From contig WFPM01000215.1 of NCBI GenBank assembly GCA_015487635.1, positions 1 through 42,833 of the forward strand: DNA of 42,833 nucleotides. The letters run 5' to 3'. Shown in pieces: positions 7,359-42,833 of the stretch. Below the pieces are notes generated by a model that had not been told where the DNA came from, searched no databases, and saw only the letters and a program-made list of their open reading frames with translations. The first letter of the stretch is position 1; each line of letters begins with the position of its first letter. This DNA is from Rhodothermus sp. GTDB lineage: Bacteria; Bacteroidota; Rhodothermia; Rhodothermales; Rhodothermaceae. The position numbers and the translations under genes are program-made.

Positions 7359-8166
7359 GCTGTCGCTTCGTGGACTTCTTCTGTGTGTTGCGCTGCTGGG
7401 CGTTGGCCTGCCCATAGCCCCGGCGCTTGCCCAGCAAACCCAGACGCAACAGACCACACCCCCACCGTCTTCCTCTTCCGGCGGCAGCACCCTACTGAGC
7501 CCCCTTCCTCGTATTCAACTCGGCGAGAACGAAGACTTTGCGCTGCCGCTGCAGCTTTTGCTGCTGCTCACCATCCTGTCGCTGGCCCCGGCCATTATCA
7601 TCCTGACCACCAGTTTTACCCGTCTGGTGGTCATCTTCAGCATCCTGCGGACGGCGCTCGGCCTGCAACAATCCCCGCCCACGCAGGTGCTGATCGGGCT
7701 GGCGCTCTTTCTGACGCTGTTCATCATGTATCCAGTGTTCGATCAGATTCACGACGAGGCGCTGCGGCCCTACCTAGACGGCGAAATCACCCAGCAGGTG
7801 GCGCTCGAACGGGCCGCTGCCCCGCTGCGCGCTTTCATGCTGCGCCAGACCCGTGAAAAAGACCTGATGTTGTTCATGGACCTAGCCCGCGTCGAAGCCT
7901 TCGACCGCCCCGAAGACGTGCCTTTCTACATTCTGGTCCCGGCTTTCGTGATCAGCGAGCTGCGCATCGCCTTCCAGATCGGCTTTATGATCTTTCTGCC
8001 CTTCCTGCTGGTGGACCTGATCGTCGCCAGCGTGCTGATGAGCATGGGCATGATGATGCTGCCGCCGGTCATGATCTCGCTGCCGATCAAGCTGCTGCTG
8101 TTCGTGCTGGCCGACGGTTGGTATCTCGTGGTGGAATCGGTTGTTCGTGGTTATCTCGGCGGTTAA
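7348..8166 (+). CDS. fliP: Flagellar type III export protein FliP
   Basis: Signal peptide; TSFTRLVVIFSILRTALGLQQSPPTQVLIGLALFLTLFIMYPVFDQIHDEALRPYLDGEI; DLIVASVLMSMGMMMLPPVMISLPIKLLLFVLADGW. Confidence 0.97.
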   Translation: MRRKLSLRGLLLCVALLGVGLPIAPALAQQTQTQQTTPPPSSSSGGSTLLSPLPRIQLGENEDFALPLQLLLLLTILSLAPAIIILTTSFTRLVVIFSILRTALGLQQSPPTQVLIGLALFLTLFIMYPVFDQIHDEALRPYLDGEITQQVALERAAAPLRAFMLRQTREKDLMLFMDLARVEAFDRPEDVPFYILVPAFVISELRIAFQIGFMIFLPFLLVDLIVASVLMSMGMMMLPPVMISLPIKLLLFVLADGWYLVVESVVRGYLGG

Positions 8167-8179
8167 ATCCCTGACGGCT

Positions 8180-8449
8180 ATGACCAGTGAAGTCGCCCTG
8201 TACTGGATTCAGGAAGCACTCAAAACCGCTCTGCTGCTGGTAGGACCACTGCTGGGCGTAGCACTGATCGTGGGGCTGATCGTGAGCCTGCTGCAGGCCA
8301 TCACGTCGGTGCAGGAGATGACGCTCAGCTACATTCCCAAGATTCTGGCCGTGGGGCTCGTGCTGCTGTTGCTGGCACCCTGGATGCTGCAGCTCCTGAC
8401 GGACTTTGCCGTGCAGGTGCTGCAGTTCATCCCGAACGTGTCGCACTGA
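8180..8449 (+). CDS. fliQ: Flagellar export protein FliQ
   Basis: ATG at 8180 gives a 89 aa product MTSEVALYWIQEALKTALLLVGPLLGVALIVGLIVSLLQAITSVQEMTLSYIPKI; classic FliQ pattern. Confidence 0.95.
   Translation: MTSEVALYWIQEALKTALLLVGPLLGVALIVGLIVSLLQAITSVQEMTLSYIPKILAVGLVLLLLAPWMLQLLTDFAVQVLQFIPNVSH

Positions 8450-31570: not shown

Positions 31571-31583
<13 letters not shown>
28212..31583 (+). CDS. Secreted S8 subtilisin-like serine peptidase with Ig-like/cadherin-like repeats and a FlgD-Ig/T9SS-type C-terminal domain
   Basis: VIAIVDGGTDWRHPDL (Asp), NAAHGTQVAGVAAAV (His), SASGTSFASPLTAGIAALV (Ser); C-terminus VRLTIYDLLGRRVRRLVDGTPGTGRHTVTWDGRSDAGIEVASGLYFVRLEIGGKVETRPLVYVR. Confidence 0.92.
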
Positions 31584-33178
<1,595 letters not shown>

Positions 33179-33183
33179 GGTTA

Positions 33184-33753
33184 TCAGGCGTTTGTGGGGA
33201 TCAGGCCGGCCTTACGGGCATACTCGAACAGGTTACCTGCCCGCAGGATCTCGGCCACCTCGCCCAGTGGATGGAGCAGAAATTCTTCGCCGGTGGTCAG
33301 ATTCGTCAGCTTGGCCAGGCGCGTGTCGATCTCCAGTTCGTCGCCCGTGCGGATTCTGTCGATCAGACGCACCGGCGTTTCGAACGGCACGAGAAAGCCG
33401 CCATCGATGGCGTTGCGGTAAAAGATGCGCGCATAGCTTTCGGCGACGACGGCCTCGCAGCCGGCTTCCTGCAACGCGAATGGTGCGTGTTCGCGCGAGG
33501 AGCCGCACCCGAAGTTCTTGCCGGCCACCACGATCTTGAAGCGGCTTTTATAGGCGTCCGGCTCGGTAAACGGAATGTTGCCAAACGGAAGGCCCTGGCC
33601 TTCGGCCGGCACGCCACTGAGCGCATAGCGACCGTAGAGCCGCCGCTCCTCGGGACGCGTCAGGCTGTAGACCAGGTGTTGCGCCGGAATGATCTGGTCG
33701 GTGTCGATCGAATCACCTACGACGTAGGCCAGCCCACGGATAATGTCTTTCAT
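33184..33753 (-). CDS. leuD: 3-isopropylmalate dehydratase small subunit LeuD
   Basis: GLAYVVGDSIDTDQIIPAQHL; VAGKNFGCGSSREHAPFALQEAG. Confidence 0.94.
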   Translation of the reverse strand: MKDIIRGLAYVVGDSIDTDQIIPAQHLVYSLTRPEERRLYGRYALSGVPAEGQGLPFGNIPFTEPDAYKSRFKIVVAGKNFGCGSSREHAPFALQEAGCEAVVAESYARIFYRNAIDGGFLVPFETPVRLIDRIRTGDELEIDTRLAKLTNLTTGEEFLLHPLGEVAEILRAGNLFEYARKAGLIPTNA

Positions 33754-33773
33754 AGCCGTATCGGGTTGTGAGG

Positions 33774-33814
33774 CGGGGTGGAGCAGTCCGGAGACTACTC
33801 CACCCCGTATTTTT
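33774..33814 (+). terminator. Terminator-like hairpin in the leuC-leuD gap; its T-tract is on the strand opposite to the operon
   Basis: CGGGGTGGAG-c-AGTC-CGGA-GACT-a-CTCCACCCCG followed by TATTTTT on the + strand. Confidence 0.6.
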
Positions 33815-33819
33815 CAGGG

Positions 33820-35118
33820 TTACACCAACACTTCGCGCGGGTCGGTGATGACGCCCGTCAGGGCCGAAGCGGCCACCGTTAGCGGCGAAGCCAGGTAGAT
33901 CGCAGCCTGTTTGGAGCCCATGCGGCCCGGGAAGTTGCGGTTGGTGGTCGAGATGACCACCTCGGTGCCGTGCGTGCGGCCGAACGTGTCGGGCGGTCCG
34001 CCCAGGCAGGCCCCGCAGCTGGCATGCCCGATCTTGCAGCCCGCATTTACGAAGATGTCGTAGAGCGAGACGCCGTCGATCTGGTAGTGGTGCAGTTGCT
34101 GTGCCACGTAGGTAGAAGCCGGCACCACATAGGTATCGATCCGCACCTCCTGTCCCTTCAGAATGCGGGCGGCTGCGATGAAGTCTTCCAGTTTGCCGCC
34201 CGTGCAGCTTCCGATGTAGGCGCGGTCGAGCTTCGTGCCGGCCACTTCGGTGACGGTCGCCCGGTTGTCGGGCCGGTGCGGTCGGGCCACGACGGGCTCC
34301 AGCCCGGAGACGTCGTAGACGTACTCCGAGTGGTAGCGCGCATCGGGATCGCTGTGATAGACCTCGAAGGGCGCATCGGTCCGCTCCCGCACGTAGGCAA
34401 TCGTCTTCTCGTCGGGCGCGATGATGCCACTTTTACCGCCCGCTTCGATCGCCATGTTCGTGAGCGTCATGCGCTCTTCGATCGAGAGGTCGTAGACGGC
34501 CTCCCCCTCGAACTCCATGGCGCGATAGGTTGCCCCGTCGATCCCGATGTCGCCGATGATGGTCAGGATGAGGTCCTTGGCCATCAGGTAGGGCGGCAGG
34601 CTACCCTCGAAGATGAAGCGCATGGTTTCGGGCACCTTGACCCAGATTTTGCCGGTGCCCATGATGAAGGCCGCGTCCGTGTTGCCCACCCCCGTCGAGA
34701 AAAGGCCGAAGGCGCCCGACGTGCAGGTGTGGCTGTCGGTGCCGATCAGCACGATGCCGGGGCGGTTGAAGCCCTCTTCGGCCAGGGCCACATGGCAGAC
34801 GCCCTTGTAGCGGGACGTCCCCACGTCGTAGTAATAAGGCAGGTCCTGCTCGCGGGCGAACTCACGCAGAATCTCGATATTGCGCCGCGCGTGTGGATCG
34901 GCCGTAAAGATATAGTGGTCCGGCAGGATCACGACTTTCTCGCGGTCCCACACGCGGGCATTTGGTCCGAACTCGCGCTTGAAGATCTCGATCGTTGGCG
35001 GCCCACACACGTCGTGCGTCATCAGGATGTCCACGTCGATCCAGATGTTCTCGCCGGGAGTGACCCGGTCGCGCCCGGCATGGCGGGCCAGGATCTTTTC
35101 GGTGATGGTCATGCCCAT
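33820..35118 (-). CDS. leuC: 3-isopropylmalate dehydratase large subunit LeuC
   Basis: MTITEKILARHAGRDRVTPGENIWIDVDILMTHDV; GTDSHTCTSGAFGLFSTGVGNTDAA; GSCTGGKLEDFIAAARILKG; CGACLGG. Confidence 0.95.
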   Translation of the reverse strand: MGMTITEKILARHAGRDRVTPGENIWIDVDILMTHDVCGPPTIEIFKREFGPNARVWDREKVVILPDHYIFTADPHARRNIEILREFAREQDLPYYYDVGTSRYKGVCHVALAEEGFNRPGIVLIGTDSHTCTSGAFGLFSTGVGNTDAAFIMGTGKIWVKVPETMRFIFEGSLPPYLMAKDLILTIIGDIGIDGATYRAMEFEGEAVYDLSIEERMTLTNMAIEAGGKSGIIAPDEKTIAYVRERTDAPFEVYHSDPDARYHSEYVYDVSGLEPVVARPHRPDNRATVTEVAGTKLDRAYIGSCTGGKLEDFIAAARILKGQEVRIDTYVVPASTYVAQQLHHYQIDGVSLYDIFVNAGCKIGHASCGACLGGPPDTFGRTHGTEVVISTTNRNFPGRMGSKQAAIYLASPLTVAASALTGVITDPREVLV

Positions 35119-35141
35119 AGGCGTTCCTGGGGGTTTATGGT

Positions 35142-36755
35142 TCAGGCGGCCGCACCACCAAAGGATTGCATGATGCCCGCACGGACGAACGAGACGCTTT
35201 CCCAGTCGGCCCGGAACTGCTCGAGCTGGTTGATGGCCTCCAGGTAAGCATCGGCCGAAGCACGCAGCACATCGGTATGCCGCGCCACGCCCCGAAAACG
35301 CCGGCCGTTAAAATCAATCACAACAGTCACTTCACCCACGGCGTCGGCCCCTTCGGTGACCGAACGCAGTTCGTAGCTGACCAGCTCGTGCGTGGCGCCC
35401 ACGGCCCGGTCGATCGCTTTGTAGACGGCATTCACCGGACCGTCGCCGGTGGCCCGCTCGATGCGGAGCGTGCTGGTCGCCCGGTTGAGAATCTGCACTT
35501 CGGCCTCCGGCGTCCGATGCGTCCCGGTAGCCACATGCATTTCCAGGAGTTGAAAGAGGGCCTCCGGGTTTTCATCCGGCTGCTCCGCGACCAGTCGACG
35601 CAGATCTTCGTCGTAGATCTCTTTTTTCAGGTCGGCCAGCGCCAGGAAACGCCGGTAGATTTCCTCTTTGCGGGCTTCCGGGATTGTGATGCCCAGTCTG
35701 GCCAACCGGTTGAACAGTCCGTGCCGCCCCGAATGGCGTCCGAGCCGGATCTGTTCGGGCTGCTGGCCCACGTCTTCGGCACGCATGATTTCGTAGGTGT
35801 CGCGTCGCCGCAACACGCCGTGCTGGTGAATCCCGGCCTCATGGCTGAAGGCGTTGCGGCCGACGATGGCCTTGTTGGGCGGCACCGGAAAGCCAGTGGC
35901 CATTGAGACCATGCGGCTGGTTTCCGTCAGGTATTGCGTGACGATGTGCACCTGCAGGCGGCCGAACCGCTCGCCGCGCACTTTGAGCGCCATGACGATC
36001 TCTTCGAGCGCGGCGTTGCCGGCCCGCTCGCCGATCCCGTTGATCGTGCACTCGATCTGACGCACGCCGGCCTGCACGGCCGCCAGCGAGTTGGCCACGG
36101 CCATTCCCAGATCATCGTGGCAGTGTGCTGAAAAGATCACGTGCGGGGGAGGCTGCACCCGACGGATCACTTCCCGGAACATGGCCGCGTACTCGTCGGG
36201 CACGCAGTAGCCGGTCGTGTCGGGCAGGTTGATCGTGGTGGCACCGGCTTCGATGGCCACCTGCACGACCTCGGCCAGATAGCCCACATCGGTGCGGCCG
36301 GCATCCTCGGCGCTGAACTCCACATCGTCGGTGAAGGTGCGGGCCAGCCGGACGGCCTCCTCGGCCAGCCGCAGAATCGTCCGCCGCTTTTCCTGCAGCG
36401 TGCGCCCGTAGCGGGCATCGCCGAACTTGGCGTCGATATGAATGTCGCTGGTGGCAATGAACGTGTGGATGCGCGTGCGCCTGCCGGGCTTGAGCGCCTC
36501 GGCGGCCGCTCGGATGTCCTCTTCGCGCGCCCGCGCCAGCGCGCAGATGACGGGACCTTCCACCTCGGAAGCGATGCGCTGAACGGCCTCGAACTGAGCC
36601 GGCGAAGAAACCGGAAAACCGGCCTCGAGCACATCGACGTTGAGCCGGGCCAGTTGATGCGCAATGCGCAGTTTTTCGTCGATCGTCATGGAAGCGCCCG
36701 GCGCCTGCTCGCCGTCGCGCAGCGTGGTGTCGAAAATGATGATGCGGTCGCTCAT
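35142..36755 (-). CDS. leuA: 2-isopropylmalate synthase LeuA
   Basis: [100 protein letters not shown]; LeuA dimer domain. Confidence 0.95.
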
Positions 36756-36811
36756 GGCTCCTGGCAGGGTTTGGGACGGATGGTTCGGTGTTGCCGCTTC
36801 GGTCACACAGC

Positions 36812-36872
36812 GCGCCCGGCCTGTCGGCAACCCGCGGCACCCGGTTGCCCGACCTGTTCGGTGGCCGGGCGC
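36812..36872 (-). other. Strong intergenic RNA hairpin between leuB and leuA
   Basis: 10-bp outer stem GCGCCCGGCC (36812-36821) / GGCCGGGCGC (36863-36872) enclosing a second 10-bp stem GTCGGCAACC / GGTTG(C)CCGAC with one bulge. Confidence 0.6.
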
Positions 36873-36949
36873 CGACTAAGTCGCCGTCCCTCCCTGCCGC
36901 GTCGTACCGCTACAACCCCTTCGTCCATACCTCCTTTCATATTGTTTTT

Positions 36950-39703
<2,754 letters not shown>

Positions 39704-39711
39704 GGCGCACC

Positions 39712-41505
39712 TCAGACGAAAGCGTTAGGGGTGAGACGCTTGGTGATCATTTCGCTGGTCGAAGCGCCGGCCGGCACCATCGGGAAGACCAGCTCTTCCT
39801 TCACCACCTGAAAGTCGATCACGACAGGCCGATCGTTCACCTTCCAGGCCTCGTCCAGCACGGCATCGACCTCTTCGGGCCGGGTAGCCCGCAGGCCCAC
39901 GCAGTGGAACGCTTCGGCCAGTTTGACGAAGTCCGGATTCGTGTCGGACAGGTCCGTGTGGCTGAACCGGTTTTCGTGGAACAGCTCCTGCCACTGCCGG
40001 ACCATGCCCAGGAAGTTGTTGTTGATGATGGCCACCTTGATGGGCAGGCGATGCGCCGCAGCCACGCCCAGCTCCTGGGCGTTCATCACGAACCCACCGT
40101 CGCCGCTGATGCAGACCACCGGCCAGTCGCTTCGTCCACGCAGGCCGAAAGCAGCGCCGATGGCAGCTGGCAACCCGAAGCCCATGGTCCCCAGCCCGCC
40201 CGACGTAATGTGCGTGCGTGGATGCAGGAAACGGAAGTACTGCGCCGTCCACATCTGATGCTGGCCCACATCCGTCACCACGACGGCATGCCCGCCCGTC
40301 CTGGCGCGGATGCGCTCGATGACGTATTGCGCCCGCAGCTTGCCGTCGCCTTTTTCATAGGTGAGCGGACACTCGTTACGCCAGTACTCAATCTTGGCCA
40401 GCCACTCTTTCGTGTCCTTGGGCTCCACCAGCGGAAGCAGCTGCTCCAGCACCTCGCGCACGTCGCCCACGATGGCGCAGTCGACCGGGACGTTCTTCGA
40501 GATGCAGGACGGGTCGATGTCGATGTGGATCACCTTGGCATAAGGTGCCCAGGAATCGACGCGGCCGGTCACCCGGTCGTCAAAGCGGGCTCCTACGGCG
40601 ATGATCAGGTCGGCGTGCTGCACGGCCTGGTTGGCGTACCAGGTGCCGTGCATGCCCAGCATGCCCAGCGACAGCGGATCGTCTTCGGGGAAGGCGCCCA
40701 GCCCGTGCAGCGTCGTGGTGACCGGGATGCGGGCTTTTCGAGCCAGTTGGGTCAGCAGGTCGGCTGCGTTCGCGTTGATCGTGCCGCCTCCCACGTAGAG
40801 CAGCGGCCGCCGCGACGCGGCGATCAGCTCCGCCGCTTCCCGGATGCGCTCCGGATCCGGCGGTCCCGGCAGCCTGTAGCCCCGCAGGTGGACCTCCTCC
40901 GGATAGGCGAAAGGCGCCTTCGCCAGTAACACGTCCTTGGGCAGGTCCACCACCACGGGACCCGGACGCCCCGTGCGCGCAATGTGATAGGCGGCCTTGA
41001 TCGTCCAGGCCAGATCGCGCACGTCGCGCACCAGAAAGCTGTGCTTCGTGATTGAGCGCGTGATCCCGATCGTGTCGGTTTCCTGAAAGGCATCGTTGCC
41101 GATCAGTTTGGTAGGCACCTGACCGGTAAAGACCACGATGGGGATCGAGTCCATGTAGGCGTCGGCAATGCCCGTTATCGTGTTGGTGGCTCCGGGCCCA
41201 CTGGTAACCAGTACCGTACCCACACGCCCCGTGGCCTTGGCATAGCCTTCGGCCATGTGCGTGCCGCCCTGCTCGTGCCGCACAAGGATGTGCTGGAAGC
41301 GCGGCTTAAGGCGGGCGATTTCGTCGTAGATGTGGATGACGGCGCCGCCGGGATGCCCGAAGACTACCTCGACGCCTTCGGCTTCCAGGGCCCGCACGAA
41401 GATTTCGGCGCCGGTCACGGGTTCGGCGGATGCAGCCACCGGCTCGCTTTCGGGGCTCAGGACCGGACGGGCGGATCGGACCAGCGGAATCGTGTCGGTA
41501 CGCAT
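39712..41505 (-). CDS. ilvB: Acetolactate synthase large subunit IlvB
   Basis: GAEIFVRALEAEGVEVVFGHPGGAVIHIYDEI; LVTSGPGATNTITGIADAYMDSIPIVVFTGQV; TPP motif SGDGGFVMNAQELGVAAAHRLPIKVAIINNNFLGMVRQWQELF. ATG at 41505 with GAGGGAG SD. Confidence 0.96.
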   Translation of the reverse strand: MRTDTIPLVRSARPVLSPESEPVAASAEPVTGAEIFVRALEAEGVEVVFGHPGGAVIHIYDEIARLKPRFQHILVRHEQGGTHMAEGYAKATGRVGTVLVTSGPGATNTITGIADAYMDSIPIVVFTGQVPTKLIGNDAFQETDTIGITRSITKHSFLVRDVRDLAWTIKAAYHIARTGRPGPVVVDLPKDVLLAKAPFAYPEEVHLRGYRLPGPPDPERIREAAELIAASRRPLLYVGGGTINANAADLLTQLARKARIPVTTTLHGLGAFPEDDPLSLGMLGMHGTWYANQAVQHADLIIAVGARFDDRVTGRVDSWAPYAKVIHIDIDPSCISKNVPVDCAIVGDVREVLEQLLPLVEPKDTKEWLAKIEYWRNECPLTYEKGDGKLRAQYVIERIRARTGGHAVVVTDVGQHQMWTAQYFRFLHPRTHITSGGLGTMGFGLPAAIGAAFGLRGRSDWPVVCISGDGGFVMNAQELGVAAAHRLPIKVAIINNNFLGMVRQWQELFHENRFSHTDLSDTNPDFVKLAEAFHCVGLRATRPEEVDAVLDEAWKVNDRPVVIDFQVVKEELVFPMVPAGASTSEMITKRLTPNAFV

Positions 41506-41510
41506 GGCTC

Positions 41511-41644
41511 CCTCACAGGCTTGGACGGTGAACAATGGTCTGGGTTTGTCGGATTGTTTTCTCGGGCTTCCGGGGTCAATCCCCCGGCCGCTGAACTTTT
41601 GCTTCTGAAACCGCCCTGCCTGTGAAGTGCCCAGGGGATTGACC
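41511..41644 (-). promoter_or_regulatory. Putative attenuator region upstream of ilvB: competing RNA helices and SD-sequestering helix
   Basis: 14-bp helix 41631-41644:41574-41587; alternative hairpin 41570-41575:41582-41587; 10-bp helix 41618-41627:41511-41520 (one G-U) covering the SD region. Confidence 0.6.
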
Positions 41645-41654
41645 GCCGTGCGTA

Positions 41655-41855
41655 TTAGCCAATAAGGCTAATAATGAGTACGAGCAGGCCAATAAGAAGC
41701 AGCAGCAGCGCCCGAAGTCGGAGGCTGCTCCCGGCCACAACCTGCTGTACCCAAGCGGTCATCCCCTGATCAAAGGGATGGGCCCACGACGCCACCAGCG
41801 CGGTCGGCTGACCGCCTCCGGTAATGACGCTTCGCTGGTGACGTCCGTGTTGCAT
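41655..41855 (-). CDS. Putative Leu/Ile/Val-rich leader peptide for the ilv-leu operon (66 aa; shorter internal start possible)
   Basis: C-terminus ...SLRLRALLLLLIGLLVLIISLIG-stop, 14 of the last 17 residues Leu/Ile/Val; stop lies 149 nt before the ilvB ATG. Confidence 0.6.
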   Translation of the reverse strand: MQHGRHQRSVITGGGQPTALVASWAHPFDQGMTAWVQQVVAGSSLRLRALLLLLIGLLVLIISLIG

Positions 41856-41884: not shown

Positions 41885-41914
41885 TAATTAACATGCAAAT
41901 AGTCCGGATGTCAA
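41885..41914 (-). promoter_or_regulatory. Candidate sigma70-type promoter for the ilv leader/operon
   Basis: On the minus strand TTGACA (41914-41909), 18-nt spacer, TAATTA (41890-41885); about 30 nt before the leader ATG. Confidence 0.5.
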
Positions 41915-42012
41915 CTGTTGCCTTGCCGTCGGACTACTCACGCATCGTCGCTGCATTGGACAGGAACGGTAGCGCTTCCTATCTTAGTTATTAAAGCAAA
42001 TTCCCCTCGTAA

Positions 42013-42026: not shown

Positions 42027-42084
42027 AATATGGATGCGCTTTCTTGCTAAAAGAAAGGCGATACCCGGTTATCAGCTTCAAAAG

Positions 42085-42115
42085 AAAGAATCACAAATCT
42101 TCATTCTTTTTTTAC
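42085..42115. terminator. Weak possible terminator for trkH
   Basis: AAAGAAT (42085-42091) / ATTCTTT (42103-42109) inverted repeat flanked by T/A runs on both strands. Confidence 0.35.
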
Positions 42116-42120
42116 AAAAA

Positions 42121-42833
42121 TCAATGCCGCCAGAAGGTGCGCGTCAGCAGAATCAGCACGGTGAAAATCTCCAGTCGGCCGGTCATCATCAGTAGCGCCA
42201 GGATCCACTTGGCCAGCGCCGGTAGATGCGCGTAGTTCTCGGCCGGACCCATTGTCCCGAACGCCGGACCGATATTCCCCAGACAGGAAAGCACGGCTCC
42301 GAAGGCGCTCAGCAGATCCACCTCCATGGCGCTCAGCGCCAGCGTACCCATGCCCAGCAGCCCGAAGTACAGCACGAAAAACGACAGCACGTTGCGCAGC
42401 ACCTCGTCGCTGACCATCCGGCCATTGAGCCGCACAGGCACGATAGCGCGGGGATGGACCAGTTGCTTCAGTTCCCGGAAGGAGTTCTTGAACAGTAAAA
42501 CGTGCCGCACCACCTTGATGCCGCCGCCCGTCGAGCCGGCCATTCCGCCTACAAAAAACAGCAGAAACAGCACGCCTACGGCCAGCGGCGACCATTGCTC
42601 GTAGTCGGCCGTGCCGAAACCCGTCGTCGTGATAATCGAGACGGCCTGAAAGGCGCCGTGCCGCAGTGCGTCGGCCAGTTCCGAATAGGTGCGGTAGTCT
42701 CCTTCAGACTGCAGGGGCGCCCAGATGCCCAGCGTGATCAGCACGGCGGCGACCGCTACGATCGACAGGTAGACGCGCAGTTCGGTGTCCTGCCACACCG
42801 GCCGCCACTGCCCATGCAGCAGCCGATAGTGCA
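42121..42833 (-). CDS. trkH: TrkH-family potassium uptake protein, C-terminal part (gene continues beyond window end)
   Basis: Frame open to the window edge (HYRLLHGQWRPVWQDTELRVYL); GAFQAVSIITTTGFGTADYEQWSPLAVGVLFLLFFVGGMAGSTGGGIKVVRHVLLFK. Confidence 0.92.
   Translation of the reverse strand, partial: HYRLLHGQWRPVWQDTELRVYLSIVAVAAVLITLGIWAPLQSEGDYRTYSELADALRHGAFQAVSIITTTGFGTADYEQWSPLAVGVLFLLFFVGGMAGSTGGGIKVVRHVLLFKNSFRELKQLVHPRAIVPVRLNGRMVSDEVLRNVLSFFVLYFGLLGMGTLALSAMEVDLLSAFGAVLSCLGNIGPAFGTMGPAENYAHLPALAKWILALLMMTGRLEIFTVLILLTRTFWRH

Follow-up and report, generated by a model that had tools for sequence, protein, structure and literature searches.

The window, i.e., the whole stretch of 42,833 nucleotides analysed here, comes from a contig of Rhodothermus sp. 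(WFPM01000215.1). It carries on its minus strand an operon for the synthesis of branched-chain amino acids (BCAA), preceded by a small open reading frame (ORF). The Pfam assignments of the downstream genes agree with the gene names of the original prediction, ilvN matching the small subunit of AHAS and the last gene encoding a second HMGL/LeuA-dimer protein (cimA-like). The small ORF also matches its earlier description in coordinates, length, and composition. It runs from an ATG at 41855 to a TAA at 41657-41655, encodes a product of 66 aa, MQHGRHQRSVITGGGQPTALVASWAHPFDQGMTAWVQQVVAGSSLRLRALLLLLIGLLVLIISLIG, and ends 149 nt before the ATG of ilvB. The feature relevant to this analysis is the ORF together with around 150 nt beyond it, up to the ilvB start (41503). 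The locus is organised as follows.

41885-41914, minus strand: candidate promoter, with TTGACA (41914-41909), 18 nt, and TAATTA (41890-41885), proposed from its conservation in the genus
41655-41855, minus strand: leader ORF of 66 codons, with the frame kept in 7/7 genus genomes and a poorly conserved N-terminal half
41658-41708, minus strand: Leu/Ile/Val codon run (14 of 17 codons), including ATT and CTT, which are rare in the operon
31571-41505, minus strand: putatively regulated operon ilvB, ilvN, ilvC, leuB, leuA, leuC, leuD, and cimA-like, from Pfam and ORFs

The candidate promoter lies around 30 nt upstream of the leader ATG, and its TTGA and TAATTA are found at constant spacing in all aligned sequences of the genus. 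Upstream of it, AAGCGCNNCC occurs twice, as AAGCGCATCC and AAGCGCTACC (window 42029-42041 and 41968-41979, minus strand). Both copies are kept in all aligned genomes of the genus and the intervening DNA drifts; the second sits within an AGGAA...TTCCT inverted repeat. The two copies are a possible operator for a DNA-binding regulator. The gene preceding the operon (42121-42831, minus strand) resembles one for a Trk/Ktr-type potassium transporter, and after it comes an A/T-rich hairpin that has a T-rich tail (42080-42113, by eye), so terminators with a U-tract seemingly do occur in this genome.

The C-terminal tail of the ORF, LLLLLIGLLVLIISLIG, comprises 9 Leu, 4 Ile, and 1 Val in 17 codons. 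These three residues make up 23% of the operon's own proteins, against which 14 of 17 has a binomial P of 4e-7. Among the 953 stop-to-stop segments of at least 20 aa counted across the window, the leader alone ends with at least 11 of 14 such residues. The codon choice in the run is opposite to that of the operon: the Ile codon ATT accounts for 5/5 in the leader versus 28/199 (14%) in the operon (Fisher 8e-5), and the Leu codon CTT for 33% in the leader and 46% over the genus versus 4% in the operon. Within the genus, the run is conserved and the N-terminal half drifts, with a dS of 0.17 in the last 24 codons and of 0.77 before the GMTA motif. In these last 24 codons dN/dS is around 1 with a low dS, which indicates that the nucleotides of the run are constrained and the peptide is not. 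The original prediction had named homologues of the 66 aa away from ilvB as a sign of an ordinary protein. In our protein searches, all full-length homologues within the genus lie in front of ilvB, and the order yielded one further match, a weak one at 30% identity (G086, E 0.002). The ORF is very likely the leader peptide of the BCAA operon, as originally proposed.

To place this leader in its lineage, we inspected, in most of the 81 genomes of the order that have a close ilvB, the DNA preceding this gene. Equivalent ORFs, with a Leu/Ile/Val run at the end, head the BCAA operon before ilvB or ilvD in ten families. In operons headed by ilvB (families f8, f10, f12, and f15), the ORF ending in the BCAA run is upstream of ilvB; in genomes with ilvD before ilvB (f4, f6, f7, f13, and one f3 genome), it precedes ilvD instead. 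Examples of peptide ends are ...VRVLLLIAILAD, ...IRGIILLILIINLIIIG, ...ASVVLLLPGLIIITV, and ...LLILIIVLLISLLLVG. Counted from an ATG, the leaders are mostly 48-72 codons long, the frame being open for 51-147 codons back, so that a long leader ORF (about 50-70 codons) is normal in this lineage. Most f3 genomes without ilvD before ilvB have no recognisable leader, with remnants in G018 and G020, which looks like a loss of the element after break-up of the operon. At the f3 loci L010, L012, and L014-L024, ilvB has no ilvD in front, and PurD lies upstream where checked.

The DNA between the leader and ilvB, together with part of the leader itself, contains a set of putative RNA elements, listed here from 5' to 3'.

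41755-41768, minus strand: segment 2, CAGGGGATGACCGC, located within the ORF, partner of segment 3
41634-41645, minus strand: segment 3, CGGTCAATCCCC, lying 9-10 nt past the stop, partner of segment 2 or of segment 4
41618-41633, minus strand: element L, TGGGCACTTCACAGGC, located in the 3:4 hairpin loop and complementary to the ribosome-binding site of ilvB
41574-41585, minus strand: segment 4, GGGGGATTGACC, partner of segment 3 or 5, from covariation and RNAalifold
41570-41575, minus strand: segment 5, CCCCGG, sharing its 5' CC with the end of segment 4 and folding into a short hairpin on that segment's 5' G's
41503-41520, minus strand: element D, the ilvB ribosome-binding site and ATG (GCCTGTGAGGGAGCCATG), predicted to be sequestered by L

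Segment 3 (GGTCAAYCCC-like) begins 5-10 nt past the leader stop in 49/49 loci, and segment 4 (GGGRTTGACC-like) mostly lies 20-50 nt downstream of segment 3. RNAalifold, applied to the order-wide alignment, predicts exactly helix 3:4. Over 29 sequences, 95.5% of the cells of this helix are paired and 6/10 pairs show double changes, a covariation that was reached by 0/500 shuffles, with slid controls far lower. The hairpin 4:5 is more stable than shuffled sequences in 10/10 families (Wilcoxon p=0.001) and takes the forms GGGG..CCCC, GAAGG..CCTTC (in f15), and TCGGG..CCCGG (in L216). At one locus, L233 of the Salinibacter-like f12 genome G069 (contig 1, ~8117-8290), the run GLVLLLIVAILPG is followed by ~27 extra codons with no stop between, and the displaced stop is again 8 nt before segment 3.

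Segment 2 sits within the ORF, close to where the run begins, though further upstream of the run in f1 than elsewhere, and its duplex with segment 3 has an energy of -27.2 kcal/mol in the window. The energy of 2:3 is below that of codon-shuffled controls in 10/10 families (Wilcoxon p 0.001). The difference is clear in f1, f8, f10, f3, and part of f12, but not in f15, where no segment 2 was recognisable, and individually 21/48 loci reach p <= 0.05. The pairing also covaries: CAGGGG/CCCCTG in segments 2/3 of the window is replaced by CAAGGG/CCCTTG in Rhodothermus sister species, with segment 4 unchanged, and in f13 GATTGACGTT/AACGTCAATCC alternates with GGTTGACC/GGTCAACCC. The mutually exclusive downstream helices, 2:3 versus 3:4, are thus present in most families, f15 excepted, and likely form a conserved alternating RNA switch. 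Between families, the leader peptides share no sequence besides the run and a short motif, GI[AD]V / [IV]D, that is dictated by segment 2. Segment 2 also accounts for an ATG within 'GGGGATGACC'. This ATG was rejected as the true start, as it belongs to segment 2 and is found at that place in this genus only. The internal start or dual role once suggested by the great length of the leader is not needed: the ATG is more simply part of segment 2, and the length is usual for the lineage.

The partner of the ilvB start region is element L, which lies outside the leader ORF. In the window, the pairing L:D has an energy of -25.0 kcal/mol; in Rhodothermus, L (TGGCACTTCACAGGC) stands opposite the ilvB site (GCCTGTGAGGTAGCCA) with ~15 pairs and -22 to -27 kcal/mol, the sister species reaching up to 15 pairs. 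The sequences of L and D differ in other families, where the target is ilvB, ilvD, or a small ORF that extends to ilvB. Each L matches its own D better than permuted D (global permutation z = -8.3) and better than other windows taken from the same gene (family-level p 0.002). A permutation within f13 gave 0/20000 pairings as good, and the median P is ~0 when each family is represented by one locus. In f6 the pairing is weak or lacking, and in f3 it is weak; in f1, f12, and f15 both elements vary too little for covariation testing. This comparison of sequences shows that L and D change together between families. In f12, f15, and L040, an ORF of 45-70 aa, mostly unconserved in sequence, starts at D, and its end lies from 19 nt inside to 45 nt before the ilvB start; in f15 its last codons are at the ilvB ATG, and in L063 there is a TGATG overlap. 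The small ORF of L032 is exceptional when read from its first ATG, and a second ATG restores the frame (by inspection). A poorly conserved ORF of 45-67 aa fills the gap between the switch and ilvB at L026, L028-L030, L034, L038, and L057-L066.

The structures allowed us to search for the element by covariance models. The first model (R1), trained on 17 loci, detected a single copy per genome, and in genomes previously scored negative it placed the element in front of ilvD; these matches came from genomes absent from its training set. The second model (R2), at E <= 0.01, found exactly one copy in 50/252 genomes of the class, all from this order, and its held-out matches in G085, G099, G100, and G102 lie in front of ilvD. 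In an evenly drawn sample of 399 genomes of the phylum, the matches were those in the order and two weak others (G257 and G148). The match in G257 adjoins ruvB and another match outside the order, in G470, has no adjoining BCAA gene; both were taken as chance.

The reading that we favour, with a probability of around 0.62, is that of a ribosome-mediated attenuator of the BCAA operon whose output is most likely the translation initiation of the first structural gene. The original prediction had argued from the ilv and leu operons of enterobacteria. That part of the analogy which concerns a leader with regulatory codons before the operon has stood, but the analogy is incomplete because there is no intrinsic terminator. 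A search for terminator-like sites in the region found 0 versus 1.9 in shuffles, and at least 5 T in the 8 nt after segment 4 were found in 2/49 loci, i.e., 47/49 have no U-tract. Helix 3:4 was thereby ruled out as an intrinsic terminator. The conserved RNA parts point instead to control of the next start site, and the output is probably at translation initiation.

One might still suppose that the same leader acts on transcription, the stalled ribosome or helix 3:4 governing a termination that would be intrinsic or, when the leader is untranslated, Rho-dependent. Leaders with BCAA runs in other phyla work, or are thought to work, in this way (C. glutamicum ilvBNC, PMC10272879), and the alternation of 2:3 and 3:4 is shaped like an antiterminator/terminator pair. 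Yet the missing terminator-like sites and the scarcity of T-rich stretches after segment 4 speak against it, and the complementarity of L to the start sites would be left without a role. We consider this output unlikely, although Rho-dependent termination could follow a hidden start site and so act jointly with the translational control that we favour.

It is less probable still, and in our view rather improbable, that the RNA binds a protein or a metabolite with the BCAA run being secondary or amplifying, as has been proposed for the LEU element. In the latter, an ORF containing a Leu run occurs together with a pseudoknot at the start site, and regulation was not abolished when the Leu codons were mutated (PMC1262725); in the present element, some loop nucleotides after segment 3 recur (CACTTC/GCATC). 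However, there is no Rfam match, the helices account for the conserved positions, with no need of an invariant unpaired pocket, and a run of disfavoured codons, superfluous for a ligand switch, is kept in nearly every family. Finally, the hydrophobic C-terminal tail and the open frame of 66 codons might suggest an ordinary small membrane protein encoded beside ilvB, but such a conserved small protein was rejected as very improbable, given that the peptide fits no Pfam or NCBIfam family, that its genus homologues occur before ilvB only, that synonymous sites in the tail are as conserved as nonsynonymous ones (dN/dS ~1, low dS), and that the ORFs of other families share only the residues dictated by segment 2 and the BCAA run.

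How a translational attenuator might operate was explored by folding computations. Unconstrained folding of the window leader gave 12 pairs for 2:3, 6 for 4:5, 12.7 for L:D, and 0 for 3:4. The presence of the first three helices without 3:4 suggests a default state with the start hidden. The ribosome was simulated by masking segment 2 with its footprint, on an RNA ending before D. With segment 2 masked before D is made, 3:4 rises from 2.0 to 9.8 pairs in f12 and from 0.1 to 11.2 in f10, and the gain is smaller over all loci (4.8 to 7.8 pairs). The conversion of 2:3 to 3:4 fades at later ribosome positions. In the window sequence, masking segment 2 abolishes 2:3 but gives no 3:4. Once D is transcribed, its accessibility at equilibrium is independent of the position of the ribosome (unpaired 0.38 versus 0.39, run twice), and an equilibrium model of start-site exposure by the ribosome was discarded, as it was not reproduced in two runs. 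Since D stays hidden at equilibrium, the model needs a kinetic trapping of 3:4 or an unmodelled pseudoknot (3:4 with L:D).

In the mechanism that we propose, the OFF state would be that of a leader with no stalled ribosome, which would fold into 2:3, 4:5, and L:D and keep the start site hidden. Under a shortage of Leu-, Ile-, or Val-tRNA, a ribosome delayed in the early run would cover segment 2, and 3:4 could then form kinetically, during transcription. In this ON state, 3:4 would hold L in its loop, leaving segment 5 and D free, and ilvB (or ilvD) would be translated. In two families and one further genome, the small ORF starting at D may relay the signal to ilvB by translational coupling. 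We infer the direction of control from pathway logic, and regard the exact on/off logic as an even bet. The same odds seem right for the full picture, that of an order-wide, single-copy translation-initiation attenuator with a long BCAA ORF, a 2:3/3:4/4:5 switch, and a retargetable anti-start loop element rewritten per family for ilvB, ilvD, or a relay ORF.

If this is true, BCAA enzymes would be made only when the cell runs short of Leu, Ile, or Val. Little is known of how amino acid supply is sensed in Bacteroidota-like non-model lineages, for which the element would provide a sequence-defined handle, and the covariance model can be used to annotate it in new genomes. As different families have rewritten L and D together, the model makes exact and inexpensive predictions of the bases that should be exchanged and put back. 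Textbooks usually present leader-peptide control of amino acid synthesis as a matter of transcription termination; a conserved leader devoid of terminators that hides start sites would, if confirmed, widen this picture of attenuation. In a 2004 survey, Vitreschak and colleagues reportedly predicted some attenuators in Bacteroidetes/Chlorobi. We found no description of the conserved RNA element in the literature searched. Six loci gave no Rfam family (T-box, riboswitches, or other motifs) at E<=1, and further loci at E<=10 gave only a chance match to a miRNA family.

Upstream ORFs rich in BCAA codons are known before ilvB in several phyla, including those of C. glutamicum ilvBNC, ilvB-II, ilvB-OMG, and Leptospira ilvB (PMC10272879, PMC8632094). 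The ilvB-OMG and Leptospira ilvB motifs are likewise RNA motifs before ilvB that contain such ORFs (PMC10272879). They may differ from the present element, which matches no Rfam family, although ilvB-OMG is perhaps not among the Rfam models. In the LEU element, found before leuA in Actinobacteria, the Leu codons pair with the Shine-Dalgarno box, and dependence on these codons is disputed by experiment (PMC1262725). It resembles the present element in that a leader ORF containing a Leu run is combined with RNA folding, perhaps into a pseudoknot, in which the start site of the structural gene takes part. It differs in sequence, gene, and phylum, and in that the present element has a separate L in the loop of 3:4. 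The enterobacterial ilvL/leuL, C. glutamicum ilvBNC, and ilvB-II also have an ORF with regulatory codons before a BCAA operon and an alternative pairing of successive segments. However, attenuators of the ilvL/leuL type have leaders of ~15-30 codons and an intrinsic terminator with its U-tract, whereas the element of the Rhodothermus order has 50-70 codons and neither of these. It further differs from this type by having the run before segment 3 with the stop abutting segment 3, and by adding a loop sequence complementary to the next start site. In the translational attenuators of erm and cat genes, a ribosome slowed on a leader ORF switches helices and frees a hidden start site. The present element is predicted to resemble them, the start site of the next cistron being hidden by a helix (L:D) that would compete with another (3:4). 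The differences are that the signal is an antibiotic there and amino acid supply here, that the sequences are unrelated, and that the element of this order has a 4:5 hairpin in addition and, in certain families, an ORF for coupling. Judged by this analogy, the element would work most like a translational attenuator.
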